From Carboxylicivirga caseinilyticus (lineage in GTDB: Bacteria; Bacteroidota; Bacteroidia; Bacteroidales; Marinilabiliaceae), in assembly GCA_025499705.1 (NCBI GenBank), contig JAFMVE010000056.1, forward strand, positions 1-35,010: a stretch of 35,010 nucleotides of DNA, read 5' to 3'. Shown in pieces: positions 6,101-27,729 of the stretch (within the stretch, counting starts at the first letter, position 1; the number at the start of each line of letters is the position of its first letter). The notes below the pieces were generated by a model, which saw only the letters and a list, made by a program, of their open reading frames with translations, was not told where the DNA came from and searched no databases. A program made the position numbers and the translations under genes.

Positions 6101-8438
6101 TGGCTAAACCATTTGTATAAAAGAACCTGTTACTTCCATCGTTATTATTTATACTACCTGTAACCGTTAAGTTATATGCCCCTAAGCTAACTTTACCAGT
6201 ACCAGAATTAAGAAACGTAAAATCTTCTACATTGACATCTGTGACCAAAGCAGCTCCATTATTTCCATTATTTAAACGGATATTACCAAAGTTAAATTCT
6301 TTACCAAACTTGCCCTGTAATACAGGTGACGACCCGGTCAATTCAATACCTCCGGTGCCCGATGATGTTAAATCTCCATCTGATATTTTAACACTATCGG
6401 TTACTGTTGGCCAGTAATCAATTACATCTAAAGCACCTCGTGTTAAACGTAAAGAACCATCTATATTAATGTTGTGATTACCAGTTAAACTAACTGTATA
6501 GTAACTACCAGCTGTTGAATGTCGGTCTTTATTAATAGTTAATCCGCTTCCAAAGGTTAAAACTCCTCCGGTTTGATTGTTAATTGCTCCATCCTGCGAA
6601 CCATCAAACACCAAATTACCTACTTGCGTATAGGTTCCTGCAATAGATAGTTCGCCACCTATAGATACATCAAATCCATTATCATTAAAAGTAGCATTAG
6701 CAGCAATGGTCAAATCGTTCAAAACAGTTAATTCAGAACTTCCTCCGGAATTACCATCTTGATTAACCACCTGAACTTGCTGACCTGTTGCTGAAGCCTG
6801 AATATCTAAATTATATAAAGGTACAGTGGCGTATATTTTTGCCTGATTACCAGAGGGAGAATCCGTTGGCGTATTAAACTGAATAGTTCCTCCAGTAACA
6901 TTATAGTTACCTTCCCCTGAGATGATTCTAAGAGCAGTTATATTATGCCTGTTTACAGCCGAGAATTCAATAACACCTCCTGTCATCTCAAATATTTGCT
7001 CTTCATTTGCAATATCAAAGGAAGGCGATCCCCAAACATTAGTTGGCAGTGCATGAATATGAAATGTACCACCTGATTGAAAATAATTCAAACGTCCATT
7101 TGAATTATATTGCCATAATTGGGTAGTGTTAATAGTTCCTCCTTCAATTTTTATAGTGGCAGAAGTTGATGTATTGTCATAATATCTAATACCATTTGCA
7201 TCCTCTGGAATAGTAAATGTTCCTGCAGCCATTTTAAGCTCACCAAATATTGTTAATCCTTGCCAGTCTGATGGTACTTCCCATGCATTAACATAGGCCG
7301 AGGCATCAAATGTTGTAATATCTGCACCATTAACATAAAGTCTTCCTGTTGAAGGTATGGTAAATTCATTGGGAGCATTACCATCAATATTTTCTCCTAA
7401 ACGATCAATAACAATATTAGAACCTAACTCTAAGGTTCCATTCTCGATAACAACAGGCAAACGTTCTGCTCCTGAAGCTCCATCAGTTCCGTCTAAACCA
7501 TTATAAGCAAGATAATCAACCGGTCCATATAACGAGAAATTAGCACTATTATCAGCCGTAACCGCTACCTTAAAAGTTTTATTTACACCTTTATCAACAA
7601 ACAAACGGTACAAATCGGTAGTTCCGTTACATTGAAATTCGGTATCGGTGGTTCCTGAGAATTTTAGTTTTACGGCTCCGTTAGTAGCTTCAGCATACTG
7701 TGTCGAATTTGAAAAATCTACTGATCCTTCATTGGTAAAATCACCGTATACATTTAACCAGTGAAAAGCTGCTCCTATACCAACCGTTATGGCTCCGGCA
7801 CTTTCAACATAAACATTTCCGTTAACCGTAGTAGTTAAAGTTGTAGTTCCTGCATTGTTAATTTGTATGGTACCGGCTGTTACAATTAAGTTACCATCAA
7901 GCGTAAGGTCATCTTCAATGGTAACCACCTGACCAGCATTCATGTCTATCTCCAGGTTACTAAAACTGAAGGCAGTGGTAATATTAAAACTGTTTCCATA
8001 AAACACTACTGTTCCATCGTCTTCATCCTGGCTGGTAAAATCGGCATCACCACCTACTCCAATGGTAGGATAATTATCAGCAGCCATTAATAAGCGTCCG
8101 TTACCTTTTAATGATGCAAAGTTATGACCTGTTGATTGACGCAGATCGAGACTACCATTTATGGTTACACTTCCGCAATTTAAAGTAACATTTCTCACCG
8201 ATGGACTATCATACGGTGAGAAACCATCAGGCACCTTTACTGTTTTACCACTTAAGATAACCACATTATCCCCTCCTGATGGAATGGCACTCCCCACAGG
8301 TACGGCACCAGCCGGATCAAGTGTCCATATATCCGGATTATCCCAATCTCCGCTGGCTAAGGTATACCAGGTATTCTGCGAAAAGGCGGTTCCACCCATC
8401 ACAAGCAATACAAATAATAAAGAGTATATTTTTTTCAT
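114..8438 (-). CDS. giant modular type IX-secreted surface protein with type A sorting tail
   Basis: The likely start is the ATG at 8438, which opens a normal signal peptide (MKKIYSLLFVLLVMGG, then TAFSQ). An in-frame ATG 27 nt upstream would add a non-signal stretch. The product has about 2770 residues and is rich in Gly, Thr, Asn, Ser and Asp. It consists of four large modules, each opening with a W-rich segment of the type GxW...xxTW followed by a PxxxDxVxI-like strand (near residues 30, 940, 1845 and 2267). Long runs of short beta-solenoid-like repeats follow (xVxGDLxxxGTxxx). The last 80 or so residues (SLYNLNGQLI...GVYIIKV...QKIFVE) match the type A C-terminal signal of the type IX secretion system, so the protein should be exported and anchored or released at the cell surface. 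An adhesin or matrix role is plausible, and no catalytic domain is recognised. The gene is monocistronic, with no convincing terminator just downstream. Confidence 0.85.
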   Translation of the reverse strand: MKKIYSLLFVLLVMGGTAFSQNTWYTLASGDWDNPDIWTLDPAGAVPVGSAIPSGGDNVVILSGKTVKVPDGFSPYDSPSVRNVTLNCGSVTINGSLDLRQSTGHNFASLKGNGRLLMAADNYPTIGVGGDADFTSQDEDDGTVVFYGNSFNITTAFSFSNLEIDMNAGQVVTIEDDLTLDGNLIVTAGTIQINNAGTTTLTTTVNGNVYVESAGAITVGIGAAFHWLNVYGDFTNEGSVDFSNSTQYAEATNGAVKLKFSGTTDTEFQCNGTTDLYRLFVDKGVNKTFKVAVTADNSANFSLYGPVDYLAYNGLDGTDGASGAERLPVVIENGTLELGSNIVIDRLGENIDGNAPNEFTIPSTGRLYVNGADITTFDASAYVNAWEVPSDWQGLTIFGELKMAAGTFTIPEDANGIRYYDNTSTSATIKIEGGTINTTQLWQYNSNGRLNYFQSGGTFHIHALPTNVWGSPSFDIANEEQIFEMTGGVIEFSAVNRHNITALRIISGEGNYNVTGGTIQFNTPTDSPSGNQAKIYATVPLYNLDIQASATGQQVQVVNQDGNSGGSSELTVLNDLTIAANATFNDNGFDVSIGGELSIAGTYTQVGNLVFDGSQDGAINNQTGGVLTFGSGLTINKDRHSTAGSYYTVSLTGNHNINIDGSLRLTRGALDVIDYWPTVTDSVKISDGDLTSSGTGGIELTGSSPVLQGKFGKEFNFGNIRLNNGNNGAALVTDVNVEDFTFLNSGTGKVSLGAYNLTVTGSINNNDGSNRFFYTNGLASDGGLTLPIASGSNGTNIQFFPVGSTTTRYTPMQVDANSAVSSNGTITVSPVNDYHPTVTDQTYALDYYWKVEQEGLDSDEANIRYEFTHHEILDVDVFRQRFIIWVYYYPTLNVFNDGVWSDYDDGNGDSNGGTTLTFPYSSLLESDFSYGVLEGGFWYGEWDAPRTLYSRDAVTNGSFNNGNTWSETGHGGESAGSEPTNIDYCIIGSGHTVYINSNNNDASQILIEEGGTLIVEDRGVNQIFRHDIGVIKGGGTLVYEEDNSWNQGTYRILDADHSEFLNNTTATIVFDGTGNPRTMPSDSEIAYYPNLKITGSGEVRCQDDEDVLVNEDLIVVESVTMNFLTYQGETVTVGGDVNISGGTLSFFTTNNSNRYFDIEGDIIMSGGTFSDANNQESKIYLRGNIAQTGGTISFSSANVVFEGTESVTYSSTGTPASFYRVRIDKPEDQTVAFNSDFDLTAWTNGTTKSLILESGICHLNHSDIKLNLTTGGANFQIPSSATLQVTNGATVNTCANYGLRLSGALVVDGGIANIDGTKVNDVGVESSDGTSFIEFTASGSSSIDVTGGGELHVGDQIRRTTNTEEGILTFAQNGGTVNIGTVGSDIKATRGMFEILGTGSSFTQADGDVINIVRSNTSSSIPSLYFTPETVSYGTGSGFAFDGTNEVAATFVMYADQALNNIEITGDDSDAIQLLTVAHTINGALTIGTNAVFDANGLDLTLGGDLVNDGTFTANNNTTYFVSDADQTISGIGTTTFADVIKQTGTGALILDRAITVSDDLILSSGTLNTAAHDLTVEGDLTNNITTSSTGNGIVMAGSDVQQLGGSGTFSVLTINNSNGVVLPTQSGAITFADKLRMEDGVFDIGRNLLVFGESAAIEEVNPFSSSNMIQTNLSFTDNGIKKTFPVISASTLFTYPIGSLGKYTPIEFDITANGNNTGSIRVKAADEPHISILPADQGSVLQYSWTLDADGISGFTADASMYSNDGDAPGDTAQYITARILLGSTDWNKFTTDDFHGRSGVNDISLFTFSDTDDSGIDGDYTAGVSTAIPDQVPAFITVTDGNYSDQSTWATYDPDTQATGTPGVNVTAGGPRGSIIYVDHTLSFPDNFEAAYRTYINASGIVNIGTSIGHRLGDVFGTGTLKLENGDLPAGSYDTFFSASGGILEYSGSSDYDVLSEIPNVNSVLFSGTGARRLPNIDVQLYGDLTFDGPELVNTHDSNISIHGDLLFNAGTFDAGINGSTVTFNGSSVQAIDGSVDFTSALGGAFYNLEIDNSVGVDMNLNIEVSNDLYLTNGILQTKASKTITLTNTSTSAVVGGGSNSFVAAKMRKNILNSSTFTFPIGNASRYGELIVSPDASSGGYWQASYHNNNPDNDGLDPTALQSPVAFVSHNEYWNVLAPAAGNAQLTLRWDASSGVNPAEADMRAVQWNTDKWYEVALGTKTGNASGGSAPLVSVMSFNTNAGGNYITFGSISIPSFSWLGNNSDWFDSSNWQGGNIPSAGTDITIDNTGSAPVINTTAVAQVNDLTINHISGLTLQPGAQMTVNGDLVTNDNLIVKNSNTNPSSLITHGTVTGNVNVEWTYTSRRYWYIGHSVTGIDISDYDDAISGDNAYFLYNYIGSWNVLSDPYSFSDPMEGYSLIVKNEGTEFVHTGELNNNTSYSKTLSNGWQLIANPYPSYYQLTVEDDITGDFRNTKGSVYVRTGDDWNSRYLATYNVLTGITTPETFDGILAPGQSFWVEKATNGDVFMNADKRIHGSAALKSSNRNQNTLRINLQNEFTSSESVVALRDNGTFDFSKLDSKIRMESDNKLSYLYSLKSDNKAVINVLPTEFDSCAIQIGFKAFCDGEHVLSVGGISTFDAEKEIILEDKVKGQFVDLRLTNNYTFTTNKGICDDRFILHLLTGSLDAEDEVPTSISNKNNDVSVSCIKGDIYIKCNWEEQSKGVSLYNLNGQLINSTLFTGTEHRMEWNKQGVYIIKVVGINQIHTQKIFVE

Positions 8439-8893
8439 AATCAACATTTTTATAACACAAAACAAATATCAAAATTTGATCTCTGTGCATTTCTACGTAA
8501 AAAGACTATAAGGTTACATTTATTTAGACAAAAGATCATTTAACAATGACCTATCTTAAAAAAATGGTTATAAAATAATAATAGATTTTTAAAGATCTAA
8601 TTTACATCCAAGTCTTTACCCTTACAATACAAAATTTACTAACTTCCTAGAATAGATGCACAAAGCTTGTGTAACAAAACTGAAATACTATTGTTCATGA
8701 TCATATATTTCGTGCATAGAAAGGGAAAAGAAACAAACCTTAAAACACATTATTAACTACATCTAGATAAGTAGAGTAGATTTTATTTTAACTATTTAAA
8801 ATGAATTGATAATTTGGTAAGTTATGATACAATATCGAAGCAACCTTTTCTAAAAATCTTATTTAGAGTCTATAAATACTCATACATAAAAAA
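8439..8893. other. intergenic region, nothing recognised
   Basis: About 455 bp of AT-rich sequence lies between two minus-strand genes. It must hold the promoter of the giant gene, but I found no clean TAnnTTTG box on the minus strand. There is no strong hairpin, RNA gene or plausible short gene. Confidence 0.5.
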
Positions 8894-12843: not shown

Positions 12844-12916
12844 GATTCAGTAGCTCAGCTGGTAGAGCACATCCCTTTTAAGGATGGGGTCCTGGGTTCG
12901 AACCCCAGCTGAATCA
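12844..12916 (+). tRNA. tRNA-Lys (anticodon UUU), copy 1
   Basis: A 73-nt cloverleaf. The acceptor stem GATTCAG pairs with CTGAATC, discriminator base A follows, and CCA is not encoded. The D arm is AGCTCAGCTGGTAGAGC and the anticodon arm is CATCC-CTTTTAA-GGATG with TTT in the centre. The T arm contains GGTTCGAACC. It is the first of three tandem copies. Confidence 0.95.
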
Positions 12917-12929
12917 CTAAACAAACAAG

Positions 12930-12963
12930 AGGCGATTAAGATAACTTTTTTAGTCGCTTTTTT
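12930..12963 (+). terminator. terminator after tRNA-Lys copy 1
   Basis: GCGATTA (12932-12938) pairs with TAGTCGC (12951-12957) with one G-T pair, followed by a run of six T. Confidence 0.6.
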
Positions 12964-12972
12964 ATCAGCGTT

Positions 12973-13045
12973 GATTCAGTAGCTCAGCTGGTAGAGCACA
13001 TCCCTTTTAAGGATGGGGTCCTGGGTTCGAACCCCAGCTGAATCA
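12973..13045 (+). tRNA. tRNA-Lys (anticodon UUU), copy 2
   Basis: Identical over 73 nt to copy 1, 129 bp downstream of it. The flanking spacer is also similar, so the whole unit of tRNA plus terminator has been duplicated. Confidence 0.95.
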
Positions 13046-13058
13046 CAAAAAACAAGAG

Positions 13059-13089
13059 GCGATTAAACACAGTTTTAGTCGCTTTTTTT
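13059..13089 (+). terminator. terminator after tRNA-Lys copy 2
   Basis: A 9-bp stem (13059-13067 with 13074-13082) is followed by seven T. It is homologous to the hairpin after copy 1. Confidence 0.6.
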
Positions 13090-13098
13090 ATCAGTGTT

Positions 13099-13171
13099 GA
13101 CTCAGTAGCTCAGCCGGTAGAGCACATCCCTTTTAAGGATGGGGTCCTGGGTTCGAACCCCAGCTGAGTCA
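13099..13171 (+). tRNA. tRNA-Lys (anticodon UUU), copy 3, diverged
   Basis: The same cloverleaf as copies 1 and 2 except for a compensatory acceptor pair (GACTCAG with CTGAGTC instead of GATTCAG with CTGAATC) and one D-loop change (CAGCCGG). The anticodon TTT is unchanged and all stems still pair, so it should be functional. Confidence 0.94.
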
Positions 13172-13173
13172 CA

Positions 13174-13233: not shown

Positions 13234-15552
13234 CTACCTTCCCTCCAATTGCTGAATCACCTGATTCAGATCCTGCGAAGCTTCAGGATAACTATTCAGC
13301 ATACCTCTAGCAAAGGCTAGTGCTTTTTGTTGCATACCATTATTCAAATAAAACTGTAATAAACCAGCATTACTGTTATAATCTTTCATCAGATTAATTT
13401 CCTTTTTCAGATAAACTTCAGCCTTCTCCTTATCGCCCATAAAATCATACATCATTGCAATATTATGCGCCACTCTTGGACGACTTTCATCCAGCTTATA
13501 TGATTTCTCCAACATTTGCAGCGACTCATTATATTTCTTTATCTCAGAAAGTAACAAACCATACGAATAAATTGCATTTGCATCATCAGGCTCATTCTTA
13601 AGATAATCATCAAAAAGCTTTACTGCTTTATCATTTTCCCCCTGGCGATTATAGGCATGCGCAAGATTAAGTTTCACAAAATGCAACTCTTGGTCTTGTT
13701 TTAAAGTTTTCAAATACCACTCAACAGCCAGTTCCGTTTTACCCAGATTATAATAAAAGTTACCTAAATTGAATTTTCCGGTTGGAAAATCAGCATTATA
13801 AATCAATACTTGCTCGTATTCATCCAATGCTTTTTGATAACTCTTCTTATAGCTATCCGGTATATTACTCTCTCCTGCAGCTAAAAGAATACGGGCCGCT
13901 TCAGTTCGAACCGCCTTTGTTTCATCATTCAGCATGGGTAACATCATTTTAATATCTTCCTCAGACTGCACTGTTATTGCCCTAAGAGCAGCCAATCTTA
14001 TTGTAGGATCTAAATGATGAATGTAATTATTTACCTGTGGCTTTAGTGAATCCTGAAAATATGTTCCCAAATGTTGAATTGCAAGTGCACGTATACTCAT
14101 CGGATACAATTCATCTGCAGCTATAATATTCAAGTGGCTGATAGCTGAAGTATCTTCATTACGTGCTTCACTAAAAGCTTCCGCAAAATGATATCGCCGA
14201 CTTTCCCCAAACCATTTCTTAATATTGTTTTCCGACCATTGAGCACTTTTATCTGTATGACATTGATTACAGGCATTTGGCACACCATATTTCATGGTCA
14301 GATCAGGCCGGGGAATCCGAAAACTATGATCGCGACGATAATCCACTCCCATATAATGACGCCCATGCATATGACAATTAATACACAATGCTCCAGAACC
14401 AACTTCCATTTTAATTCCTGATTCAGAAATCAGCGACTCACCTTTCATTCCTTCCGATTTATGAAAATGATGTTCTGGCGTATCATAAATATCAGGAACA
14501 TGGCATTGAGCACATAGCTTATTATATTGCTTCCCCTGATTACCAAACAACAATTTACCACTGTGTACATTATGACAATCATTACATTGCACTTCTTTCA
14601 TATGCATTTTACTTTGCATAAACGAAGCATAAACATAATCTTCATCCAGAATTTGCCCATCGATATACCACGTTGGATCTTCCGGCAAATTTGGTACCAC
14701 ATGGTCATATATATTTTTCGAATGATGATCAAAATCCTGCAACGAAGCCCGTCGACTGTGACAACGAACACAATTATTTACATACTCAGTATGATCTATC
14801 CCACTTGTTTTTACAACCAGACCATAATTATCGATATCTTCCTGAGCATATTCAGGCAAAGAGGCCCATTCAAGATGTTTTGAAGCCGGACCATGACATG
14901 CCTCACAACTCACATTAATCTCCGACCATGTCGTATTGTACGTATCCGTTTTATGATCGTATCCTTTCTGTAAATTAGTTGAATGACAATCTGCACACAT
15001 ACTATTCCAGTTCTGCGCCTGATTCGTCCAATGTAACCAGTCATCATTCTTTATTTGCTGACCGGTATAGATATAATCTGCCATATGATACCAGCGACTA
15101 CTGTCGCAATCCCAGGTAAGAGCGAGTGTCTGCAATCGCCGACCAGGAAATTCAACCAAATATTGTTGCAATGGATAATTCCCAAATACATACTTAACTT
15201 CAAAATCCTGCATTGTGCCATCTGCACCATCTGTATTAACCATAAATCGGCCATCCCTTTTAAAGAATCGATGATTCATGCCCTGAGCCTCAATAACAAC
15301 ATCATTAAAGTCACCTAAAACTGACGAATCAGTAGCATCATCCATAGCCTTGTTATGATGTGATTGCAACCAATCATTATATTCAGCCTGATGGCATTCA
15401 ACACAAGTTTCAACACCGGTATATTCAGCCTGAGCTGTTTTAATCACCTCTTTTCCAGCATAGGTTTTTATCAACAAATAAACCGGCAACAGCAATAAAA
15501 CTACAATGCCCAATATTCGAATAATCTTACTATATTTTAAAATATCAGTCAT
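13234..15552 (-). CDS. membrane-anchored octaheme cytochrome c with HEAT and TPR repeats
   Basis: The 772-residue protein has one N-terminal membrane helix (about residues 9-29), then eight CxxCH haem c sites at residues 50, 186, 216, 261, 323, 347, 390 and 428. HEAT-like helices follow (about 470-560, for example DPTIRLAALRAI), then five or so TPRs (about 575-765, for example FNLGNFYYNLGKTELAVEWY). The haem part resembles the multihaem C554-type cytochromes often annotated as TPR cytochromes. It sits in the periplasm on a membrane anchor. Its ATG lies immediately after the stop of the Rieske gene, and it is last in the cytochrome b-Rieske operon, the place where cytochrome c1 is expected. 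I infer that it takes electrons from the Rieske centre. The partner held by the TPRs, and the terminal acceptor, cannot be seen here. Confidence 0.85.
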   Translation of the reverse strand: MTDILKYSKIIRILGIVVLLLLPVYLLIKTYAGKEVIKTAQAEYTGVETCVECHQAEYNDWLQSHHNKAMDDATDSSVLGDFNDVVIEAQGMNHRFFKRDGRFMVNTDGADGTMQDFEVKYVFGNYPLQQYLVEFPGRRLQTLALTWDCDSSRWYHMADYIYTGQQIKNDDWLHWTNQAQNWNSMCADCHSTNLQKGYDHKTDTYNTTWSEINVSCEACHGPASKHLEWASLPEYAQEDIDNYGLVVKTSGIDHTEYVNNCVRCHSRRASLQDFDHHSKNIYDHVVPNLPEDPTWYIDGQILDEDYVYASFMQSKMHMKEVQCNDCHNVHSGKLLFGNQGKQYNKLCAQCHVPDIYDTPEHHFHKSEGMKGESLISESGIKMEVGSGALCINCHMHGRHYMGVDYRRDHSFRIPRPDLTMKYGVPNACNQCHTDKSAQWSENNIKKWFGESRRYHFAEAFSEARNEDTSAISHLNIIAADELYPMSIRALAIQHLGTYFQDSLKPQVNNYIHHLDPTIRLAALRAITVQSEEDIKMMLPMLNDETKAVRTEAARILLAAGESNIPDSYKKSYQKALDEYEQVLIYNADFPTGKFNLGNFYYNLGKTELAVEWYLKTLKQDQELHFVKLNLAHAYNRQGENDKAVKLFDDYLKNEPDDANAIYSYGLLLSEIKKYNESLQMLEKSYKLDESRPRVAHNIAMMYDFMGDKEKAEVYLKKEINLMKDYNSNAGLLQFYLNNGMQQKALAFARGMLNSYPEASQDLNQVIQQLEGR

Positions 15553-16020
15553 CTATACATAGGTTACTTGTGAATTTTCATATTTATTTCTCCTTAAAGG
15601 ACTATTAACATCAACCATTACCTTGTCGTCCTGAATTGTAATGGGATAGATATCCAACGCCCTGGTTGCCGGAGGAGATAATACCTCGCCATATTTATTA
15701 AAAGAAGACGCATGGCACGGACAAACAAATCGATCTTTATTTTGATTAAACTGAATAGCGCATCCCAGATGAGTACAATGAATCGAGATAGCTAAGAGGC
15801 CACCATCTTCCAAACGCGACAAATAAAAATGAGCAGCCCCAAATGGATATACTTTACCTTTTTCGAAAAAATTGATATTCCCGGCATCAAACCAACCATC
15901 CGAAACTTTTTTGGCTTTTTTCTTACGCAAAAGTCCCGTAAAAACATAAATTATTTCAAGTGATAAAAGCGCATAAACAGCTCTTTTAATAAATGTTCGT
16001 CGGTTTAATTTAAACTTCAT
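15553..16020 (-). CDS. Rieske [2Fe-2S] protein of a cytochrome bc-type complex
   Basis: A 155-residue protein with a twin-arginine-like start (NRRTFIKRA, residues 6-14) and one membrane anchor (about 14-31). The Rieske fold has both cluster boxes: CTHLGC at 82-87 and CPCHASSF at 100-107. Cluster ligands are Cys82, His84, Cys100 and His103, with Cys87 and Cys102 placed for the stabilising disulfide. It is the middle gene of the operon, 18 nt after cytochrome b and directly abutting the octaheme cytochrome. Quinol oxidation on the outer face of the inner membrane is the expected role. Confidence 0.92.
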   Translation of the reverse strand: MKFKLNRRTFIKRAVYALLSLEIIYVFTGLLRKKKAKKVSDGWFDAGNINFFEKGKVYPFGAAHFYLSRLEDGGLLAISIHCTHLGCAIQFNQNKDRFVCPCHASSFNKYGEVLSPPATRALDIYPITIQDDKVMVDVNSPLRRNKYENSQVTYV

Positions 16021-16038
16021 TAATTGTATTCTTAAAAA

Positions 16039-17313
16039 TTAAGCAAACAAATGCATTCCTTCTCCCCTAAATAAGCTTCCTACAATGGTCATTACAACAT
16101 AAGCGACAATAATGATTGTAAACATTGCCATCATCAGATCAATTTTGGAAGCATTGTATTTCGATTTTAAAAAATACAGAAATGCTGCAGCAGGAACCAA
16201 ATATAAAAGCAATAGCAATAAGCCTGTACTAATCAGCAAGGGAACCTGTGGCATCCAGTTGCGTAAATCCAGAAAGAATTCGCTTGAAAGGATCACAAGT
16301 AAAGTAAGCACCAATGCATAAACAACTGAGATAATAGTCAGCTTCTTACCTTTATTAGAATTAAACCAAACCCCAACATTTAAATCTGTATATTTTACAA
16401 AAGGAATATAAACCAGAAAAACAGTTACTAACAAGGGAATTATAAATATTCCAAAACCGGGATGAATATGCAGTAGCAATTCCTGAAACCCCATAAAATA
16501 CCAGGGCGCCTTACTCGGATTAGGACTAATTAACGGATCAGCTTTTCCTTGAAGTGGAGCATTTATAATCATGGACAGTATAAACAAAACAATTATAACA
16601 ATCAGAGCTACCAAAATCTCCTTAAATACCAAATTTGGATAAGTGGGCACCAGGACTTTTTCATCACTATTCTGAACAGTAACTCCTTTAGATTTGCGCA
16701 CCAGCCAAAAGTGAACAGACATAAGAAAAACCATCAGTAATGGTAACAACCCAGTGTGAAAATGATAGAATCGAAGCAATGTTATTTCAGTAACTTCATC
16801 ACCCCCTCTAACCATGTCGGCTATTGCATCTCCCACAAAAGGAATATAGCTTAACATGTTGGTCATAATGGTAACTGCCCAAAATGATAACTGATCCCAT
16901 GGCAACAAGTAACCCGTGAAATTTGAAAATACAACCAGAAACATTATTAACAGACCGTAAATCCAATTTTTCCGGCGTTCGTGATAAATGGATTGAGTAT
17001 AAAACACTCTTAATACATGTAGAAACGAAACCAGCACTAGAGCCATACCACTCCAATAATGAAGATTCCTTAACAATTGGCCAAACAAAACCTGATTCTC
17101 CAACTCGATAATGGAATCATATGCACCCTTAACAGAAGGGACATATGCAAAACGCAGTAACATTCCTGAAATAAATAGCATAACAAATAACAAAGCAGCT
17201 ATACCTCCCAAACCAAATGTTCGTGTAAACTTAATTGATTGCGCATCTACCTTATTAGGATGTAAATGCAAAAGTAATTTTGTTATGGCCTTTGAATGTC
17301 CGGCTGTATTCAT
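16039..17313 (-). CDS. cytochrome b of a Rieske/cytochrome b complex (b6 and subunit IV parts fused)
   Basis: A 424-residue membrane protein with about eight to nine helices. Bis-histidine haem ligands are His85 and His99 in one helix (13 residues between) and His186 and His201 in the other (14 between, the b6 spacing). The C-terminal half corresponds to subunit IV of b6f complexes and carries the quinol-site segment APWYFMGFQELL (about 269-280), where the PEWY glutamate is replaced by Pro. That form resembles menaquinol-oxidising complexes of Gram-positive bacteria. It is the first gene of the operon, followed by Rieske and octaheme cytochrome c. Menaquinol is the likely electron donor, by inference from the phylum. 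Confidence 0.9.
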   Translation of the reverse strand: MNTAGHSKAITKLLLHLHPNKVDAQSIKFTRTFGLGGIAALLFVMLFISGMLLRFAYVPSVKGAYDSIIELENQVLFGQLLRNLHYWSGMALVLVSFLHVLRVFYTQSIYHERRKNWIYGLLIMFLVVFSNFTGYLLPWDQLSFWAVTIMTNMLSYIPFVGDAIADMVRGGDEVTEITLLRFYHFHTGLLPLLMVFLMSVHFWLVRKSKGVTVQNSDEKVLVPTYPNLVFKEILVALIVIIVLFILSMIINAPLQGKADPLISPNPSKAPWYFMGFQELLLHIHPGFGIFIIPLLVTVFLVYIPFVKYTDLNVGVWFNSNKGKKLTIISVVYALVLTLLVILSSEFFLDLRNWMPQVPLLISTGLLLLLLYLVPAAAFLYFLKSKYNASKIDLMMAMFTIIIVAYVVMTIVGSLFRGEGMHLFA

Positions 17314-17369
17314 TATAAAACTTGTGTTAGGTTGCAGCTTAAAGTAAGATACTATTAATCATTTCCACT

Positions 17370-17400
17370 CAAAAGTAACCATTTTCATCATATTTGAAAT
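17370..17400 (-). promoter_or_regulatory. possible promoter of the cytochrome b operon
   Basis: On the minus strand 17377-17370 reads TACTTTTG, a perfect -7 box, about 57 nt before the cytochrome b start. Only a TTTC is found at the -33 position, so confidence is limited. Confidence 0.35.
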
Positions 17401-17799
17401 TGATTTAATTATTGACTGCCTATTTTATAGAATCACCTAAAATCTTACAATAAATGCTTCCTTCTTTTTATTTTTTTGCTTCTCTCCTTTATCATTTTGC
17501 TTTATTCTATCTCTCAATATCATTTTATCAAAAAGAATCCGATTCAGGAATTCAAATTATAACTAATCATTTCACATTTATATCAAATATCAATCAATAC
17601 CGCCATAATTAACTAAAAACCTTGATATTTTAATTAAACAGGAGAACAAGACCCCGTTTAAATTAAAAATTCAAAACAAAAAACACTTTAATATTTATCA
17701 CCCCCCCCTATTTTTATACTTGCTCTTTGATATTTATTGGTATTTTTTCTTACCACCCCCTTTAATTTTAATGTTTTTATATTTTTTAACATATTTTTG
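17401..17799. other. non-coding region before the tandem small RNAs, nothing firm recognised
   Basis: About 400 bp of very AT-rich DNA with no open frame of note. It contains a run of eight C at 17701-17708 and another C-run near 17755. No hairpin terminator or RNA gene was found in it. Confidence 0.5.
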
Positions 17800-17830
17800 T
17801 TTGTACAATTCAAAATAACCCCCATCTTTG
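17800..17830 (+). promoter_or_regulatory. promoter of small RNA copy 1
   Basis: TTTG at 17800-17803, a 19-nt spacer, then CATCTTTG at 17823-17830 (TAnnTTTG with one mismatch). Spacing equals that of the tRNA-Lys promoter in this window. Confidence 0.55.
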
Positions 17831-17833
17831 TAA

Positions 17834-17914
17834 TGGATTTTTTCATAAAACTTGGATTTAGTTAGCTGATTTAAGGGTAGGGACAGGTAAACGTATCTGT
17901 CCTACTTTTTTTTT
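17834..17914 (+). ncRNA. candidate small RNA, tandem copy 1
   Basis: About 80 nt beginning just after the -7 box and ending at a T-run. A weak 5' hairpin pairs CTTGGATT with GATTTAAG (17851-17874, 8 bp with three G-T pairs, loop TAGTTAGCT). A strong 3' hairpin pairs GGACAGGTA with TATCTGTCC around an AACG loop (17881-17902), followed by nine T. There is no start codon with an open frame. Copy 2 lies 173 bp downstream with only about four substitutions between positions 17827 and 17904. I do not recognise the family. It could be a trans-acting regulator, or less likely a leader left without a gene. Confidence 0.6.
17881..17914 (+). terminator. intrinsic terminator of small RNA copy 1
   Basis: A 9-bp stem with one G-T pair, AACG loop and a run of nine T. 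Confidence 0.75.
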
Positions 17915-18007
17915 AAAATCAAAACTCAATTCTGGTTTAACAAATAATTAGTCTGTTGTTAACTTACACATAACACGACAATTAAAAAATCCCACCAAAT
18001 TTGCATT

Positions 18008-18084
18008 GGATTTTTTCATATAACTTGGATTTAGTTAGCTGATTTAAGGGTAAGGACAGGTAAACGTATCTGTCCTCTTTTTTT
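18008..18084 (+). ncRNA. candidate small RNA, tandem copy 2
   Basis: This is the second copy of the unit at 17834-17914, with the same 5' hairpin segment (18024-18047) and the same terminator stem and loop. The few differences fall in the 5' end and beside the terminator stem. Similarity also extends about 20 nt upstream of the -7 box, which here reads CAAATTTG (17996-18003). The TTTG -33 element of copy 1 is not kept, so the two copies may be expressed differently. Confidence 0.55.
18054..18084 (+). terminator. intrinsic terminator of small RNA copy 2
   Basis: GGACAGGTA and TATCTGTCC pair around AACG (18054-18075), followed by seven T from 18078. Confidence 0.75.
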
Positions 18085-18102
18085 GTCCAATTTTTAGTGA
18101 AT

Positions 18103-18126
18103 AAAAAAAGGCAGCAAAGCTACCTT
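18103..18126 (-). terminator. terminator of the HAD phosphatase gene
   Basis: On the minus strand AAGGTAGC and GCTGCCTT pair (8 bp, one G-T) around TTT, followed by a T-run (18109-18103). It lies 26 nt after the stop codon. Confidence 0.7.
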
Positions 18127-18151
18127 CTCTAAAACATTATATCGATTTCAA

Positions 18152-18937
18152 TCAAGCTCCCAATAACTCTTCCAGCACAAGCATAACACCATCTTCATCA
18201 TTTGTCTTCGTTTGAAACCTAGCTACTTTTTTTATATCATCATGAGCATTTCCCATGGCATAACTATACGCAGCAGCCTCAAGCATCTCATAATCATTCA
18301 GATAATCCCCGAAAACCATCGTCTCTTCATCCGAAATACCTAACTTATTTTGAAGAAACTTAATTGCTTCACCCTTATTAACTCCTATCGGCATAACATC
18401 TAACCAAATAGAACTTGAAGTACTAATCTGAAACTGATCTGAAAATACCTGCACCGATTTCAGCGTGGTAGATTCAAGATTATGAAAATCATTAACAGCA
18501 ATCTTCAAAACATCATCCTCAACCGTTAAAAGGTCCTCAACAAAAGTACAACGATGATAATATAAACGAGCTTCTGCAAGAAAACGCTCATTACGAGACT
18601 CTACATAAGCACCTTCTTTACCACATAAAACGATATCAGCCCCCTCAATACTTCTAATATGCTTAATTAATTTTTCAACATTATTGGTTTTCATCGGCTT
18701 CAGCAACTGCACATCCTTTCCCCATTTGATATACCCTCCATTCTCAGCAATAAAAAACATATCATGATCAATATGCGCAAACTCTTTCTCCAAAGTATAA
18801 AACTGTCTTCCACTTGCCACAACAAAATAAATTCCAGCATCACGCAATCTCCTGTACATTGACTCAAACCCAACGGGCAACTTCTTCTGAGAATTCAAAA
18901 GAGTACCATCCATATCACTCGCTATCAACTTTACCAT
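18152..18937 (-). CDS. Cof-type HAD-IIB family phosphatase
   Basis: A 261-residue cytoplasmic hydrolase with all four HAD motifs. These are DMDGT (nucleophile Asp8, acid/base Asp10), the Ser of ASGR (Ser42), Lys188 (VNKGEA) and GDYLND (Asp211, Asn214, Asp215). The large C2B cap lies between motifs 2 and 3, as in Cof/YidA proteins, which dephosphorylate sugar phosphates and cofactors such as FMN or PLP with broad specificity. The substrate cannot be told from sequence. It is a single gene bounded by terminators on both sides, and its 3' end faces the tandem small RNAs. Confidence 0.88.
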   Translation of the reverse strand: MVKLIASDMDGTLLNSQKKLPVGFESMYRRLRDAGIYFVVASGRQFYTLEKEFAHIDHDMFFIAENGGYIKWGKDVQLLKPMKTNNVEKLIKHIRSIEGADIVLCGKEGAYVESRNERFLAEARLYYHRCTFVEDLLTVEDDVLKIAVNDFHNLESTTLKSVQVFSDQFQISTSSSIWLDVMPIGVNKGEAIKFLQNKLGISDEETMVFGDYLNDYEMLEAAAYSYAMGNAHDDIKKVARFQTKTNDEDGVMLVLEELLGA

Positions 18938-21748: not shown

Positions 21749-22810
21749 TTAAAATATTCTTCTTCTCTTTTTGCGATATTTACCCCCACTACTATTCGGG
21801 TTGGCCGTTTCACTACAAGGAACTGCAGGACGTTTACCGCCCATTCGAAGATTCCCTTTCTGGTTAAATTCAAAAATCATTGAAAGTTCATGAGCTCCCT
21901 GAGTTGCCCAGCCTAAATTTGATATTGTAATATCGTAACTGTATCCAACGCGCACCATACCAAAATCATATGCCAGTAATGCCACAATTGCATCCTGGTT
22001 AACTGCCGAGCTTTTTGCTTCATTAAAGATTGGTAATCCCCGATACCAAAAACCCAGCTCAAGAGGACCATTATACCAATAAAGTCCAACATCTAACTGA
22101 TTTTGATTTGCTTGATTCTGATATCTGAATGATGTTGAAAAGGCTCTGTTCATACCCTTATTTCTACGTCTTTCAGTCCATATATTATATCCACCAAATA
22201 CAACATATTTTAAATCAACCTCAGCTTTTTCATTCATAAATGAATAGTTTGGCTTAGCCAGATGATCAACCGTTAATCCCATCCAATATTTTGAACTGTA
22301 AAAAAATACAGAAGCAGCCAAATCTATATATTGAACCTGATCATTAGTTAGCCGGCCCCAACTACCAGATCCTCCACCAGACCCAGGCGGTTGATCAGGA
22401 AAAATGATTTTACTAAAATCAACTGCTTTATTTCCATACGAAAACTGAATAGCAGGAATCACCTGCCAATCGCTCGACAACAAAAGATTATAAGAATACT
22501 GAAAAGCTGCCTGTGTAGTAGTCAACCCGGCACTACCTGCTTTATCCTGTATTAGATAAAAACCTATTCCACTATTAAAACTGGAAAAGAAATTATCAAA
22601 TGAAACAGAGGCGGTAGAAAAAGCTTCATTAATGGCAGGCCATTGATTTCGGTAATTCATAATAAGCCTGCCTCCATCTGTTGCTCCTGCTAACGAAGGA
22701 CTTAAATACAATGGATTAGCATAGAACTGCGAAAAATGCATATCCTGCCCTTTTGCACCAACAAAATAAAAGAGACTTAATATTATATATATACCAACTC
22801 TATTCTTCAT
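21749..22810 (-). CDS. PorP/SprF family type IX secretion system outer-membrane protein
   Basis: A 353-residue protein with a signal peptide (MKNRVGIYIILSLFYFVGAKGQ). The family's opening DMHFSQFYANPLYLSPSLAGA is followed by beta strands of an outer-membrane barrel and a basic tail (KYRKKRRRIF). PorP/SprF proteins are paired with large proteins carrying type B tails and are needed for their secretion or attachment. That pairing holds here: its ATG overlaps the stop of the 1639-residue PKD protein by 1 bp (TAATG). It should therefore serve that protein specifically rather than general secretion. Confidence 0.93.
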   Translation of the reverse strand: MKNRVGIYIILSLFYFVGAKGQDMHFSQFYANPLYLSPSLAGATDGGRLIMNYRNQWPAINEAFSTASVSFDNFFSSFNSGIGFYLIQDKAGSAGLTTTQAAFQYSYNLLLSSDWQVIPAIQFSYGNKAVDFSKIIFPDQPPGSGGGSGSWGRLTNDQVQYIDLAASVFFYSSKYWMGLTVDHLAKPNYSFMNEKAEVDLKYVVFGGYNIWTERRRNKGMNRAFSTSFRYQNQANQNQLDVGLYWYNGPLELGFWYRGLPIFNEAKSSAVNQDAIVALLAYDFGMVRVGYSYDITISNLGWATQGAHELSMIFEFNQKGNLRMGGKRPAVPCSETANPNSSGGKYRKKRRRIF

Positions 22811-25800
22811 TATCTAAACAAGGTTACATCACCCGTGCGGGTTTCAATGGTTCCATTAGAATATTTACAAACAACTTTCCAGATATATACACCAGCGGCA
22901 CATAACTTACCCCTGTAATAACCATCCCAACCTATCTTAACATCTTCACTTTCGTAAATCAATTCCCCCCAACGGGTAAATATCTTCAAATTATATTCAA
23001 CAACACCATCCTGGACAAACGGATAAAATACAAAATTATCCGGATCACCTGCCGTATACTGACCACCATTGGGCCCATTCGGATTTGGTGTAAACGCATT
23101 TGGAAAATCTATCTCTCCTGCGGCTTCTGCCACTACTGCGCTCCTTATAATACGTTCATTTGTACAACCTTTATCATTCTCAACCAGCAGAGTAACATCG
23201 TAAGTACCGGGTTCCTGATACAAATATTGAATGGAGTGTTCTGTTGATGTATTACCATCTCCAAAGTCCCATAAATAGGCAACAGCACCTTCTGACTTAT
23301 TGATAAAAGAAACAGTTTGTGGTAGTTTAACTTTTATTGGTCTTACCTCAAAATCAGCTACCGGCACTTCAAAAACAGTAACCGTAACATCATCCGCTTC
23401 AATTACTCCTCCTGATCCTTCAGCCGTTAAAGTCACCTTATAATCACCCGTTGTATAATAGGTATGGGTCGGCTCTTTCTCTGTTGAAATATTTCCATCA
23501 CCAAAATCCCAAAGAAAAGTATGCGCATCCACACTATTATTATAAAATTTAACAGTTAAAGGAGGACAACCCAATGTATCAGGCCCATAATCAATAGATG
23601 GCAACATTGGCAGAATTTCAATAGCTTCATAGGTTGAATCAGAACAATGCTCGCTCTTAACAACTAATTTAATATCAAAATCACCAGATTCTCCATAAGT
23701 ATAAGAAACAGGATTTTGCCCTTCATAACTATCACCATTGCCCCACCACCATGTATAATTCCATCCTGAATGAGCTGTTGTATTTTCAATACTCACTGTT
23801 GAATTTGGCATTTGCTGACTTTTGGGATTAGCATTAAAAGAAGCATCCGGAGTTTTATAAACCGTAACATTGGTATAGGCTGTATCTTTACATCCAAACG
23901 AAGATTCTGCTATCATCGACACATCAAAGACCTGATCATTTAAGGTCGAATTAAGAAAGATATTTTTCCCCGTATATGAAGTAGATGAATTTCCATCTCC
24001 AAAATCCCAATAAAACTTATTAGCACCTTCTGAATTATTGATGAAACTTTCTTCATATGGAGAACACCCTTGTTCGCCATCACTAATGGATGCTAAAACT
24101 TTAGGAAATACCTGAACAATCGTTTCTGAAGAATCTTTGCATGCATAGCTATTACCGACCACCAAACGTGTAGTATAATTTGCCATGGCATATTCATCAT
24201 TGTCATAAACATGAACTATATCAGAACTTCCTGTAACCTCCTGTAAAGTTCCATCACCAAAATACCACTTACTATATTCAGCACCGATGGATGAATTAGT
24301 AAGCTGCACATTCAAAGGTGCACATCCTGAAGATGGTGTGGTTTGAAAACTACTAACCGGACTAGGATTTACCGTTACAGTTGTGTAAGCAGTATCTTTA
24401 CATCCATACGAAGAGGTAGCTTCCATAGCCACATTAAATACTGAAGGCTCAGTACCCGTATTTATAAATTCATTTATACCGTTATAACTATTAATTGTAT
24501 TGCCATCACCAAAATCCCATGAAAAACTTACAGCCCCAGCTGACTCGTTTAGGATTGTTTCCACAAATGGAGAACATCCAACTCCTCCATCAGAAATAGC
24601 CGCCTGGACAGCGGGAAAAGCTTTCACAATTGAAGTTGATGAATCTTTACAACCAAAACTATTTTCAACTAATAACTTTGCAGTAAATGATTTTAAATCC
24701 AGCTCTTCATTTAAATAAGTATGGGAAACAGAACCTGCAGCAGCTAAATCAGTTGACTGACCGTCACCAAAAAACCAATGACTAGTGCCGGCTCCCTGCG
24801 ATTCATTGGTGAAATCAACCAATAATGGTGCACAACCTTCTGTTGGTGTGTATGAAAACATACTGACAGGGCTAGGATTAACAGTAATAACAGCCTGAGC
24901 GGTATCAAGACAGCCAAAAACCGATGACGTGTATAAATTCACATTAAAACTTTTACTAGCTGATGTGGTATTTTCAAAAATATGCGATATGGCATTAATA
25001 CCAGACACAATGGTTCCATCACCAAAATCCCAATTATAAGAATAGGCTCCCGGATCACCCAAAAAATCAACCTTCAACGGATGACATCCTTCAACAGGTT
25101 CAGCAGCAAAATCATATCCAACCAATGGATAAACAGTTATATAGGCACTTGATGTATCCGGACAATCATAGGTATTATTTACTGCCAACTTAACTTCATA
25201 AGACTTTACAAACGTTTCTGAGTTTATAAATGAATGCGATACATCTTCCTCTATCGAAGCAGGAGAACCATCACCAAATGTCCATTCATATTCGGTGGCA
25301 CCTACCGATTCATTTGTAAAATCAACGAGTAACGGACTACATCCCGGTGCCGGATCATTAGTGAATTTTGAAATTGTATTAGGATTAACCGTTATGGTAT
25401 ATTCAACCGAATCGCGACAGCCATAATTGCTATAAGCCAACAGCTTCAATGTATAATCAGCTGGCACCTGTAATGGATTTGAAAAAGTATGTGATGGATT
25501 AACCTGATTAGAACCAAAACCATCTCCAAAATCCCAAAGGTAAGAATCTGCATTTAGCGATTGGTTCACAAATTGGTTTGAATAAGGACTACATCCTGCA
25601 TCATCAAAAGGACCAACTGCAGCTGTTACTACCGGATAAAAATCAATTGTTACAGTATCTCCAGCTTCACAAACATCATTGATTTCGACCCACGCAAACT
25701 TATATTTACCTGCAAGATCAACTGATACATCTGTGTTTGCATTCAGATTATTATTAAAAGTTGAAGACCCGGGCCCACTAACCTGTTTCCATGAGCCAGC

Positions 25801-27729
25801 TCCAATATCAGGAATCGCCACTAACAACATATCCAATCCGCAGGTATCTGCATCATTCATAACCTGAGGATTTGGAATTTGAACAAACGACACAAGAACT
25901 TCGTCTACATCTGTACAACCATTGTTATCTTCTGTCCATTGAAACGTATAATCACCATAGTTATCAACTATAACCAACGAATTCGGATCTCCTAAATCAG
26001 AAACTGAAGCATTTCCTGGTCCGGTTACAAGAGACCATGTGCCGGAACCTTTTGTTGGCACTGCTTCAAAGTAGTATCTCAATCCACAAGACTTAGAATC
26101 AGGTCCTGCATTTGCAATGGGTGTTTCATAAACAACAACCGTTATACTATCAGAATCCTCACATCCATGACTATCCAAAACATAGTATTCGAACTTAAAC
26201 GTCCCGGCTTCAGTTGCATTAAATACAGGGTTTTCAACATCTGTTGCAGAAAGCAGATCAGTGCGATCTCCACTCCATGTATGTTGAACATACACTCCTG
26301 ATCCTCCAACAGGATTAGGCTCAATAGCTTTTGATGAACCTGTACACAATTCAATATAATCGTTAGCAAAGATGATAGCAACTGAATCTACCACAACTAA
26401 TATTGTATCTTCATCATAGCATGAATTATCATCTGTTACCCGATAAATCAATTCATAATTACCTTCATCAGAAGTAATAAACTGAGGAGTTTGTACATTT
26501 ATATTATTCAACGGTGTTATATCTCCCTTCCAGAGATGAGTATAAGGCAATGCTCCACCCGATGGATTTCCATCTAAATCAAGCTGAGTGCCTGGACATA
26601 AATAAACGGGAGATCCTGTTGTAATACTTGCTGATGGTGCAGCGATTACTTCAATAACAGTCTGACCTGTTGCACTACACCCATTTCCGTCTTCGACATA
26701 GTAATCAATTGTGTGGGTTCCCGAACCAGCAATCGAAGGATCAAATATACCTGTATTGGAATCCACAATACCAGGTCCTGACCACACACCTCCCGATGTA
26801 ACAGCAGTTAGAGTAACTGGATCTTCATTCTCACAGAAGGGACCGGCCGAATTTACTGTTCCATCCGGAATATCAACAATTAAAGCAATTGCAGTTGTTA
26901 TAACAGGAGGATGATCTCCATTTATTGGATCGGCGGGAGTTCCCGGAATATTCGGATCATCATACGGATTACATTGATTCCAGTTCCGAAGTGTTATTTC
27001 AAAATAATCTCCTACGTTATAATTGTTTGGAATATAAATGGGTAATGCAGTGTTTAAAGGCGGTACCGGACCATAAATAGGTTCGGTGGTGACATCAACG
27101 GTACCTGTCATTGGATAAGTTTCTAAAACCCCATTTACCAATGCCGTATTGATATTAGTTCCTCCGGTTCCGTATATCCATTGAATCCATCTTTTACGCT
27201 CGTTAATAAAGTCGTTTTCGTCTGGTGGAGTACAATTCCACTGACTGTTATCCACGAATGTCACAGTACCATCATTACCAACACAAATAGGAAAAACCAA
27301 TGGATCGATGGCCATTTCGCCGCCATTGTATTCATCCGTATCCCACACGGTTACATTCTGTGTTTGGATACTACTCGTACACTCTACTCCATTAACAACT
27401 AACGAAACATTGGGCTCGTAATTACATTTATCGCCCGCGATAGGATATACATGAGAATATGTTAAGGTCCACTCATTACCACTTGTATTGATGGCAGGAA
27501 TTATTTCAGCAGGATTACCATCATCCCACCGAAAAATAAATTCAACACTGGTTCCTGCATTATTTACACCTCTATAGGTTACAGTCCAGTCAACAGTTAC
27601 CGGTGCACATAATTTATCCGGTATTATATCGTTTGCTTTTGATATAATATTACAATCCTGCCCCTTTCCAGTAACAAACAGAAAAAGCAGGTAGAATAAT
27701 ATTAAAAGAGCTCTTTTTTTACCGTCCAT
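22810..27729 (-). CDS. SprB-like PKD-repeat surface protein with type IX type B sorting tail
   Basis: A 1639-residue secreted protein with a signal peptide (MDGKKRALLILFYLLFLFVTGKGQ). The N-terminal region (about 25-290) has a PKD-like DDG segment. Ig-like domains separated by GxGxWSLVTGPG/GAGSWKQVSGPG-type segments span about 290-690. Ten PKD domains follow with [WDTFY]FGDG or WGNG cores near residues 734, 819, 902, 988, 1074, 1158, 1244, 1329, 1411 and 1491. The last 100 or so residues begin at FPNAFTPNPNGPN and hold TRWGELIYESED and GVYIWKVVCKY, the type B (gliding-motility C-terminal) signal. Proteins of this kind are cell-surface adhesins related to SprB. It is co-transcribed with the downstream PorP/SprF gene. 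Six of the PKD domains form three two-domain repeats. Confidence 0.9.
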   Translation of the reverse strand: MDGKKRALLILFYLLFLFVTGKGQDCNIISKANDIIPDKLCAPVTVDWTVTYRGVNNAGTSVEFIFRWDDGNPAEIIPAINTSGNEWTLTYSHVYPIAGDKCNYEPNVSLVVNGVECTSSIQTQNVTVWDTDEYNGGEMAIDPLVFPICVGNDGTVTFVDNSQWNCTPPDENDFINERKRWIQWIYGTGGTNINTALVNGVLETYPMTGTVDVTTEPIYGPVPPLNTALPIYIPNNYNVGDYFEITLRNWNQCNPYDDPNIPGTPADPINGDHPPVITTAIALIVDIPDGTVNSAGPFCENEDPVTLTAVTSGGVWSGPGIVDSNTGIFDPSIAGSGTHTIDYYVEDGNGCSATGQTVIEVIAAPSASITTGSPVYLCPGTQLDLDGNPSGGALPYTHLWKGDITPLNNINVQTPQFITSDEGNYELIYRVTDDNSCYDEDTILVVVDSVAIIFANDYIELCTGSSKAIEPNPVGGSGVYVQHTWSGDRTDLLSATDVENPVFNATEAGTFKFEYYVLDSHGCEDSDSITVVVYETPIANAGPDSKSCGLRYYFEAVPTKGSGTWSLVTGPGNASVSDLGDPNSLVIVDNYGDYTFQWTEDNNGCTDVDEVLVSFVQIPNPQVMNDADTCGLDMLLVAIPDIGAGSWKQVSGPGSSTFNNNLNANTDVSVDLAGKYKFAWVEINDVCEAGDTVTIDFYPVVTAAVGPFDDAGCSPYSNQFVNQSLNADSYLWDFGDGFGSNQVNPSHTFSNPLQVPADYTLKLLAYSNYGCRDSVEYTITVNPNTISKFTNDPAPGCSPLLVDFTNESVGATEYEWTFGDGSPASIEEDVSHSFINSETFVKSYEVKLAVNNTYDCPDTSSAYITVYPLVGYDFAAEPVEGCHPLKVDFLGDPGAYSYNWDFGDGTIVSGINAISHIFENTTSASKSFNVNLYTSSVFGCLDTAQAVITVNPSPVSMFSYTPTEGCAPLLVDFTNESQGAGTSHWFFGDGQSTDLAAAGSVSHTYLNEELDLKSFTAKLLVENSFGCKDSSTSIVKAFPAVQAAISDGGVGCSPFVETILNESAGAVSFSWDFGDGNTINSYNGINEFINTGTEPSVFNVAMEATSSYGCKDTAYTTVTVNPSPVSSFQTTPSSGCAPLNVQLTNSSIGAEYSKWYFGDGTLQEVTGSSDIVHVYDNDEYAMANYTTRLVVGNSYACKDSSETIVQVFPKVLASISDGEQGCSPYEESFINNSEGANKFYWDFGDGNSSTSYTGKNIFLNSTLNDQVFDVSMIAESSFGCKDTAYTNVTVYKTPDASFNANPKSQQMPNSTVSIENTTAHSGWNYTWWWGNGDSYEGQNPVSYTYGESGDFDIKLVVKSEHCSDSTYEAIEILPMLPSIDYGPDTLGCPPLTVKFYNNSVDAHTFLWDFGDGNISTEKEPTHTYYTTGDYKVTLTAEGSGGVIEADDVTVTVFEVPVADFEVRPIKVKLPQTVSFINKSEGAVAYLWDFGDGNTSTEHSIQYLYQEPGTYDVTLLVENDKGCTNERIIRSAVVAEAAGEIDFPNAFTPNPNGPNGGQYTAGDPDNFVFYPFVQDGVVEYNLKIFTRWGELIYESEDVKIGWDGYYRGKLCAAGVYIWKVVCKYSNGTIETRTGDVTLFR

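Follow-up and report, generated by a model that had tools for sequence, protein, structure and literature searches.

A pair of near-identical units of about 80 nt, placed in tandem on the forward strand of a Carboxylicivirga caseinilyticus contig, raises the question of whether they are genes for small RNAs (sRNAs) and, if so, which mRNAs these RNAs would act on. The window analysed here is a stretch of 35,010 nt, contig C97 of a 5.65-Mb Carboxylicivirga genome; NCBI places the genus in the Marinilabiliaceae, Marinilabiliales, and the kinship labels of our genome samples (‘same order’ and the like) are those of GTDB. We consider it probable that the pair represents two tandem genes for trans-acting sRNAs of a FopS-like clan, which would pair across the starts of SusC mRNAs and block ribosome entry.

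Anatomy and setting of the two units

A repeat search returned a direct repeat of 107 nt (17805–17911 and 17978–18084; spacing 173, identity 88%). This agrees with a first-pass annotation, made from the sequence alone, that had described two units of ~80 nt at an offset of 173 bp: they measure 77–80 nt and are identical at 72 of 76 positions from the TTTG of the –7 box to the end of the terminator stem, with mismatches at 17831, 17833, 17848 and 17880. Its weakly conserved promoter block (17805–17830; 19 of 26 positions identical between the copies) and the lack of such similarity in the surroundings (22/60 and 18/57 identical positions in the flanks) were likewise borne out. The features assigned, in window coordinates, are:

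16039–17313, – strand: divergent neighbour, cytochrome b/b6-like protein
17800–17803, + strand: –33 TTTG of copy 1 (from the sequence); missing from copy 2 at 17973–17976
17823–17830, + strand: –7-like box CATCTTTG of copy 1 (from the sequence)
17835–17914, + strand: sRNA-like unit, copy 1 (type A), predicted 5′ end 17835; model R1 match at 17835–17911, 89.0 bits, the copy being itself a row of R1
17835–17869, + strand: near-invariant 5′ domain and proposed seed of copy 1 (34/35 identical in copy 2; conserved in the alignment; in silico SusC pairing)
17838–17846, + strand: TTTTTTCAT of copy 1, complementary to ATGAAAAAA, candidate anti-start-codon motif (alignment, predicted duplexes)
17880–17903, + strand: terminator stem-loop of copy 1, loop AACG (terminator scan; compensatory changes in relatives)
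17996–18003, + strand: –7-like box CAAATTTG of copy 2 (from the sequence)
18008–18084, + strand: sRNA-like unit, copy 2 (type A), predicted 5′ end 18008; model R1 match, 90.9 bits, this copy also being a row of R1
18053–18076, + strand: terminator stem-loop of copy 2 (terminator scan)
18152–18937, – strand: convergent neighbour, HAD-type hydrolase (Hydrolase_3)

The Bacteroidota –7 box follows the consensus TAnnTTTG. Among the 96 units of types A and B (defined below), the second place of this box is an A in 92, and a further TTTG lies 21–30 nt upstream of the –7 TTTG in 29. The 5′ end of copy 1 was predicted from the TTTG spacing seen in the FopS family. As the annotation had stated, copy 1 possesses the –33 TTTG and copy 2 has lost it (0/4 matching positions); the two copies may be controlled separately.

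Both copies end in the strong, AACG-looped terminators that had been proposed, each with a 10-pair stem, a 4-nt loop and a T-run, and these two are the only terminator-like sites in 17320–18150 (shuffle mean, 0.3). The predicted fold beat 200 of 200 shuffles for copy 1 (z –3.18) and 193 of 200 for copy 2 (z –1.91). The 5′ hairpin of the annotation fared less well: 92.8% of cells are paired, and a two-sided change occurs in one of its nine pairs, which lends it weak support. A coding role was considered and rejected, as reading frames of at least 20 aa cross the copies and none lies wholly inside a unit on the + strand; an ATG at 17833, which would open 10 codons, precedes the predicted 5′ end and has no counterpart in copy 2.

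The units stand alone, since both neighbouring genes lie on the – strand, and a leader or other cis-element is rejected for the same reason (the next gene occupies 18152–18937). More broadly, a cis-acting leader, a mobile repeat or a relic devoid of a transcript would suit the multi-copy, tandem occurrence of the element, yet the orientation of the neighbours, the recurrence of the HAD neighbour in relatives and the compensatory changes in the terminator (see below) all speak against it, making this the least credible of the explanations considered. The HAD gene was found near the element in 4 of 13 three-kb loci of the genus (L006–L018), in the longer Carboxylicivirga loci L115, L121, L124, L150, L151 and L160, and in another genus too (G024); the cytochrome b gene was found near it in none of the other fetched loci searched.

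The remainder of the window contains three tandem tRNA-Lys (TTT) genes (12844–13172) and, at 13234–17313, adjoining genes for a multihaem-type cytochrome with TPR repeats, a Rieske protein and cytochrome b/b6 that probably make up an electron-transfer cluster of the bc type. A 2783-aa reading frame occupies the – strand at 114–8465, and a gene for a PorP/SprF-type protein of type IX secretion adjoins a 1639-aa reading frame at 21749–27729.

Conservation in relatives and the proposed seed

Homologues of the two proposed sRNA genes were detected by DNA search in 32 of 60 genomes, the own genome included, namely in all 14 genomes of the genus, in 17 of 22 others of the family and in 1 of 24 from other families; two matches no more than 1 kb apart occurred in 11 of the 14 genus genomes (counted from the DNA search table). 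A pattern scan of named genomes yielded 75 stretches, for the most part in genera of the Marinilabiliaceae and in unassigned Bacteroidales MAGs, some of the latter from ruminant and horse gut; at one locus of Dyadobacter (L157) the pattern was present and no terminator or –7 box was seen. Within the fetched loci, 190 places (some of them fetched twice) were gathered, comprising 120 distinct sequences: 42 of type A (CATAAAACTTGGATTTAGTTAGCTGA, the type of the window), 54 of type B (CATAGATTTGGATTTGGTTAAC), 11 FopS, seven of a form termed A2 and six others, one of them empty. The A2 unit was seen in L061, L064, L065, L066, L123, L164, L170 and L174 (Marinilabilia, Anaerophaga, Thermophagus), mostly beside type B units, and keeps only the first ~25 bases of type A.

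Model R1, built from types A and B, matched 38 of 295 genomes of an order-wide sample (own included) at E ≤ 0.01, some of them by chance; the matches L300, L312, L320 and L325 were unconvincing by eye and not counted. In a phylum-wide sample, 8 of 296 genomes, again including the own, had matches at E ≤ 0.001, and two of the seven from other genomes (L372, L376) were convincing by eye. The L376 type was matched in 6 of 19 genomes searched, counting its own. These units (L376, L380–L385), from another family of the class, consist of TTTTTCATAGGATATGGTTAA and a terminator, with a TTTG box in most copies, and perhaps constitute a further branch.

The own genome encodes nine related units convincing by eye, five of them in two tandem clusters: two of type A in the window, and one of type A with two B-type units on contig C134. 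The other four, on C64, C68, C44 and C69, are of a third type, C. A tenth R1 match at E ≤ 0.01 (G000:C79:215685) was unconvincing by eye and left out of the count.

The annotation's picture of tandem, paralogous, stand-alone units of sRNA anatomy is sustained by their being kept in relatives, often in tandem, and by compensatory changes in the terminator. In a 34-row alignment these were two-sided in seven of eight terminator pairs, a count that could have been lower had all 39 candidate rows been used, as one of the five left out comes from a genome with a different terminator.

Which part of the unit would do the work? The annotation had placed a regulatory seed in the segment between hairpin and terminator. 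Conservation points elsewhere: across relatives it peaks at the 5′ end, where the 5′ domain is near-invariant. In G016 (L058, L059) the same 5′ domain is joined to a terminator of unrelated sequence, as though one had been exchanged for another, and in A2 units the domain is kept only up to GGATTTA, after which the sequences diverge. The distance from the –7 TTTG to TCAT is 12–13 nt in 38 of 42 A units and 14–16 nt in 49 of 54 B units. The near-invariance of the 5′ domain, the behaviour of the G016 and A2 units and this fixed distance therefore make the 5′ domain probably the working part. This domain, GGAUUUUUUCAUAAAACUUGGAUUUA, is the most likely seed, and the segment next to the terminator probably is not one. 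Within this domain, TTTTTTCAT is antisense to ATGAAAAAA.

Relation to FopS and other sRNAs

FopS comprises 14 sRNAs of B. thetaiotaomicron, which base-pair close to the start codons of SusC mRNAs and repress these glycan transporters; FopS-10 was found experimentally to block ribosome entry, and the RRM protein RbpB, which FopS binds, counters the family (PMC11697453). In the available portion of that report, its authors describe high conservation within Bacteroidaceae, mention a phage copy and note no strong indication of sub-diversification (PMC11697453). The family is also cited in PMC12119571.

The annotation had assigned the units to an unknown family. They fall below the Rfam gathering score for FopS but are not without kin, and FopS is the nearest described family. 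The FopS model RF04319 scored 19.0 and 17.2 bits on the window copies, against a gathering score of 56, so that by this test they are not members; FopS was nevertheless the only family among the Rfam matches listed on both copies, and the matches listed for any other family all scored under that family's gathering threshold. Among the matches listed, RF04319 reached its cut-off in 5 of the 60 relatives, all of them outside the family. In at least 11 same-family genomes (G015, G016, G019, G021, G025, G026, G027, G030, G032, G033, G035), weak RF04319 matches of 25.8–34.4 bits overlap the DNA homologues of the window element. Higher scores than on the window copies also arose elsewhere in the own genome, e.g. 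at C65:39893 (32.5 bits), which was unconvincing by eye as a FopS-like member; further matches lie on C78 and C55. Conversely, model R1 located 11 of 15 FopS loci correctly at E ≤ 1 (13–32 bits), ten of the 11 at E ≤ 0.03, and missed four.

Both groups comprise short, multi-copy units with a TTTG box at similar spacing, an intrinsic terminator, a 5′ UUUUUCAU antisense to the start codon plus AAA, and an AU-rich seed extension, and both are directed at SusC starts, as experiments show for FopS and as in silico predictions suggest here. As with the many paralogues per genome of FopS, nine units are present in the own genome. The R1/R1′ seed of FopS shares UUUUUCAU with the window units, and its extension differs in type A, which has CAUAAAACUUGGAUUUAGUUAGCUGA in place of the CAUGGUAUUAGAUUUAAGGUUAA of FopS; the GGUUA(A) of the FopS seed is retained in the type C units of C44, C68 and C69. 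FopS has a single-stranded 5′ region followed by a terminator; here the terminator is present, and type A carries a weak predicted 5′ hairpin. As for the canonical sigma-ABfr promoter of FopS, copy 1 has the –33 and –7 TTTG and copy 2 lacks the former. Tandem clusters and distinct seed types within one genome further set the present units apart from FopS.

When tails beyond the CAT were compared, 23 of 25 units (A, B, C, intermediates and FopS), hand-picked from earlier matches, joined in one cluster at z ≥ 4, and none of 300 shuffled pairs reached z ≥ 3. Type A is linked to FopS mainly via B, C and intermediates, one intermediate form occurring in G314, from another family of the order. On sequence grounds, the window units are members of a divergent clan of FopS-like candidate sRNAs, and a common origin with FopS is likely; it stays unproved because both are pressed towards the same target. 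This leaves some room for a separate origin with the same function, in which Marinilabiliaceae anti-start-codon sRNAs would have converged with FopS on SusC starts. Such convergence would fit the RF04319 scores far below cut-off, a shared motif that is the very part dictated by the target, and the indirect link of type A to FopS; the likeness beyond the CAT along the chain of hand-picked units at z ≥ 4, the same kind of TTTG spacing and the intermediate in G314 argue against it, and we hold it to be unlikely.

Other sRNAs offer parallels as well. GibS of B. thetaiotaomicron likewise uses a 5′ seed to pair with translation initiation regions, and its R1 seed is common to FopS. As described in the accessible text on it, GibS has 145 nt, a second seed, R2, and a non-canonical PM2 promoter (PMC7366714, PMC11697453). 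The window units differ from it in length (77–80 nt) and in their TTTG-type –7 box, the two traits compared.

Qrr and PrrF, paralogous sRNA genes of which some are in tandem, belong to another phylum and have other targets, and are likened to the present pair by description only.

FopS at the Rfam cut-off was also seen on viral contigs of IMG/VR, at 5 of 11 loci tested (L179, L189, L181, L186, L178) from 34 pattern stretches; the A/B pattern was absent from this viral collection. In the open-access literature, we found nothing on sRNAs of Carboxylicivirga or Marinilabiliales, nor on RF04319, and no title or abstract opening suggesting such sRNAs outside Bacteroidaceae.

Predicted pairing with SusC starts

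Duplexes were predicted for 39 SusC start regions, obtained from 54 matches to the SusC family (TIGR04056) in the own genome, and for 548 comparison genes from an 835-kb sample from which SusC genes were not purged. For SusC, the start codon was picked by a K/R rule; for other genes, the most upstream ATG was taken. With the full 5′ domain of A, mean duplex energies were –15.24 for SusC (n = 39), –11.72 for signal-peptide-like genes (n = 256) and –10.65 for the others (n = 292); the corresponding values for B over the same gene sets were –18.38, –14.02 and –12.69. For both A and B, the AUG lay inside the predicted duplex span at 38 of 39 SusC starts, and at G000:C60 the pairing extends to 17 perfect pairs (CAAGTTTTATGAAAAAA). 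Shuffling the tail with the anti-AUG part kept, which preserves base composition and not dinucleotides, gave the SusC mean in none of 200 trials for either type (z –5.3 for A, –5.0 for B). Some SusC starts are doubtful (L217, L239); an ATGAAA-matched SusC comparison, which lessens the bias from start choice, gave p = 1.0e-3 (A) and 5.5e-5 (B). Eight of the nine own-genome seeds were set against shuffles, and all did better (0/100 each); with short seeds, shuffles reached the observed value in 1 of 100 cases for window copy 2 and in 6 of 100 for the A unit of C134.

Might SusC be only part of the target range of a trans-acting sRNA directed mainly at other mRNAs, e.g. those of exported proteins generally? 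Signal-peptide-like genes do outpair the others with both A and B, the best-scoring genes of the 835-kb sample include, by eye, non-SusC exported proteins, and, when only ATGAAA starts are compared, the short B seed shows a significant signal-peptide effect (p 0.0032). The short A seed does not (p 0.064), however, and pairing is stronger at SusC starts than at signal-peptide-like genes (p 1.6e-5 for A, 2.0e-5 for B); we therefore give this possibility a low probability and retain SusC mRNAs as the main predicted targets.

On the own-genome SusC starts, the FopS seed was equalled by 2 of 200 shuffles (z –2.4). In two FopS-bearing genomes, from which 30 of at least 30 SusC loci were used, the FopS seed served as positive control (z –3.9; 0/200), and A and B gave z –1.0 (36/200) and –1.9 (8/200), respectively. 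These first two SusC sets suggested lineage-exclusive pairing, but the signal of A and B in G347, which belongs to the class and had no R1 match at E ≤ 0.001, went against it: over its SusC starts (29 of 30 loci, one having no ATG), z was –3.4 for A (0/200), –3.1 for B (1/200) and –1.0 for FopS (33/200). SusC starts thus share features across the class, part of the signal being general to them, and the A/B fit is not lineage-exclusive because G347 fits A and B, if more weakly than the own genome does.

A further explanation would turn the units into decoys that titrate an RbpB-like RRM protein and pair with no mRNA. FopS, after all, binds RbpB (PMC11697453), the own genome has a gene for a single RRM protein (100 aa), and the 5′ domain is conserved by sequence. 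Yet the seeds differ between types and each of the eight tested retains its complementarity to SusC starts, and the element occurs in G015 and G034, in which no RRM match was found; we regard a decoy as improbable. RRM matches were present in 46 of the 60 genomes and absent, besides these two carriers, from G043, which has a weak DNA match to the element, and from G056, a FopS carrier.

In the favoured model of start-codon pairing, each unit would be transcribed from its own Bacteroidota-type promoter and end at its intrinsic terminator, as inferred from sequence. The 5′ domain would pair over the start codon, through its anti-AUG and anti-AAA parts, and over the 15–25 nt upstream of it in mRNAs for SusC-type outer-membrane glycan transporters, perhaps also for other exported proteins, and the duplex would block ribosome entry as does that of FopS-10 in B. 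thetaiotaomicron; the RbpB-like RRM protein, encoded once in the own genome, may modulate the sRNA. Transcription of the units, pairing in the cell and repression are what we infer from these predictions.

More tentatively, and with somewhat less than even confidence, we envisage a Bacteroidia-wide clan of anti-start-codon sRNAs whose 5′ domain would be an antisense copy of the consensus of SusC start regions and would drift along with it in each lineage, the Marinilabiliaceae having split it within one genome into types A, B and C that favour different SusC mRNAs and thus rank polysaccharide uptake post-transcriptionally. Such sub-specialisation, if true, would contrast with FopS of B. thetaiotaomicron as portrayed in the available part of its report (PMC11697453). 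If the favoured model of start-codon pairing holds, RNA-level control of SusC would extend beyond gut Bacteroidaceae to the Marinilabiliaceae (Carboxylicivirga, Marinilabilia, Anaerophaga and others) at the least, and perhaps to a large share of the class, and whether the paralogous seeds of one genome divide its SusC repertoire would become directly testable. Under that model, the nine units of types A, B and C may together restrain polysaccharide uptake in a graded and partly specialised way, a possibility raised by the differing predicted SusC preferences of the seed types: over the SusC starts, rank correlations were 0.89–0.96 among A seeds and 0.30–0.60 between A and B or C seeds.
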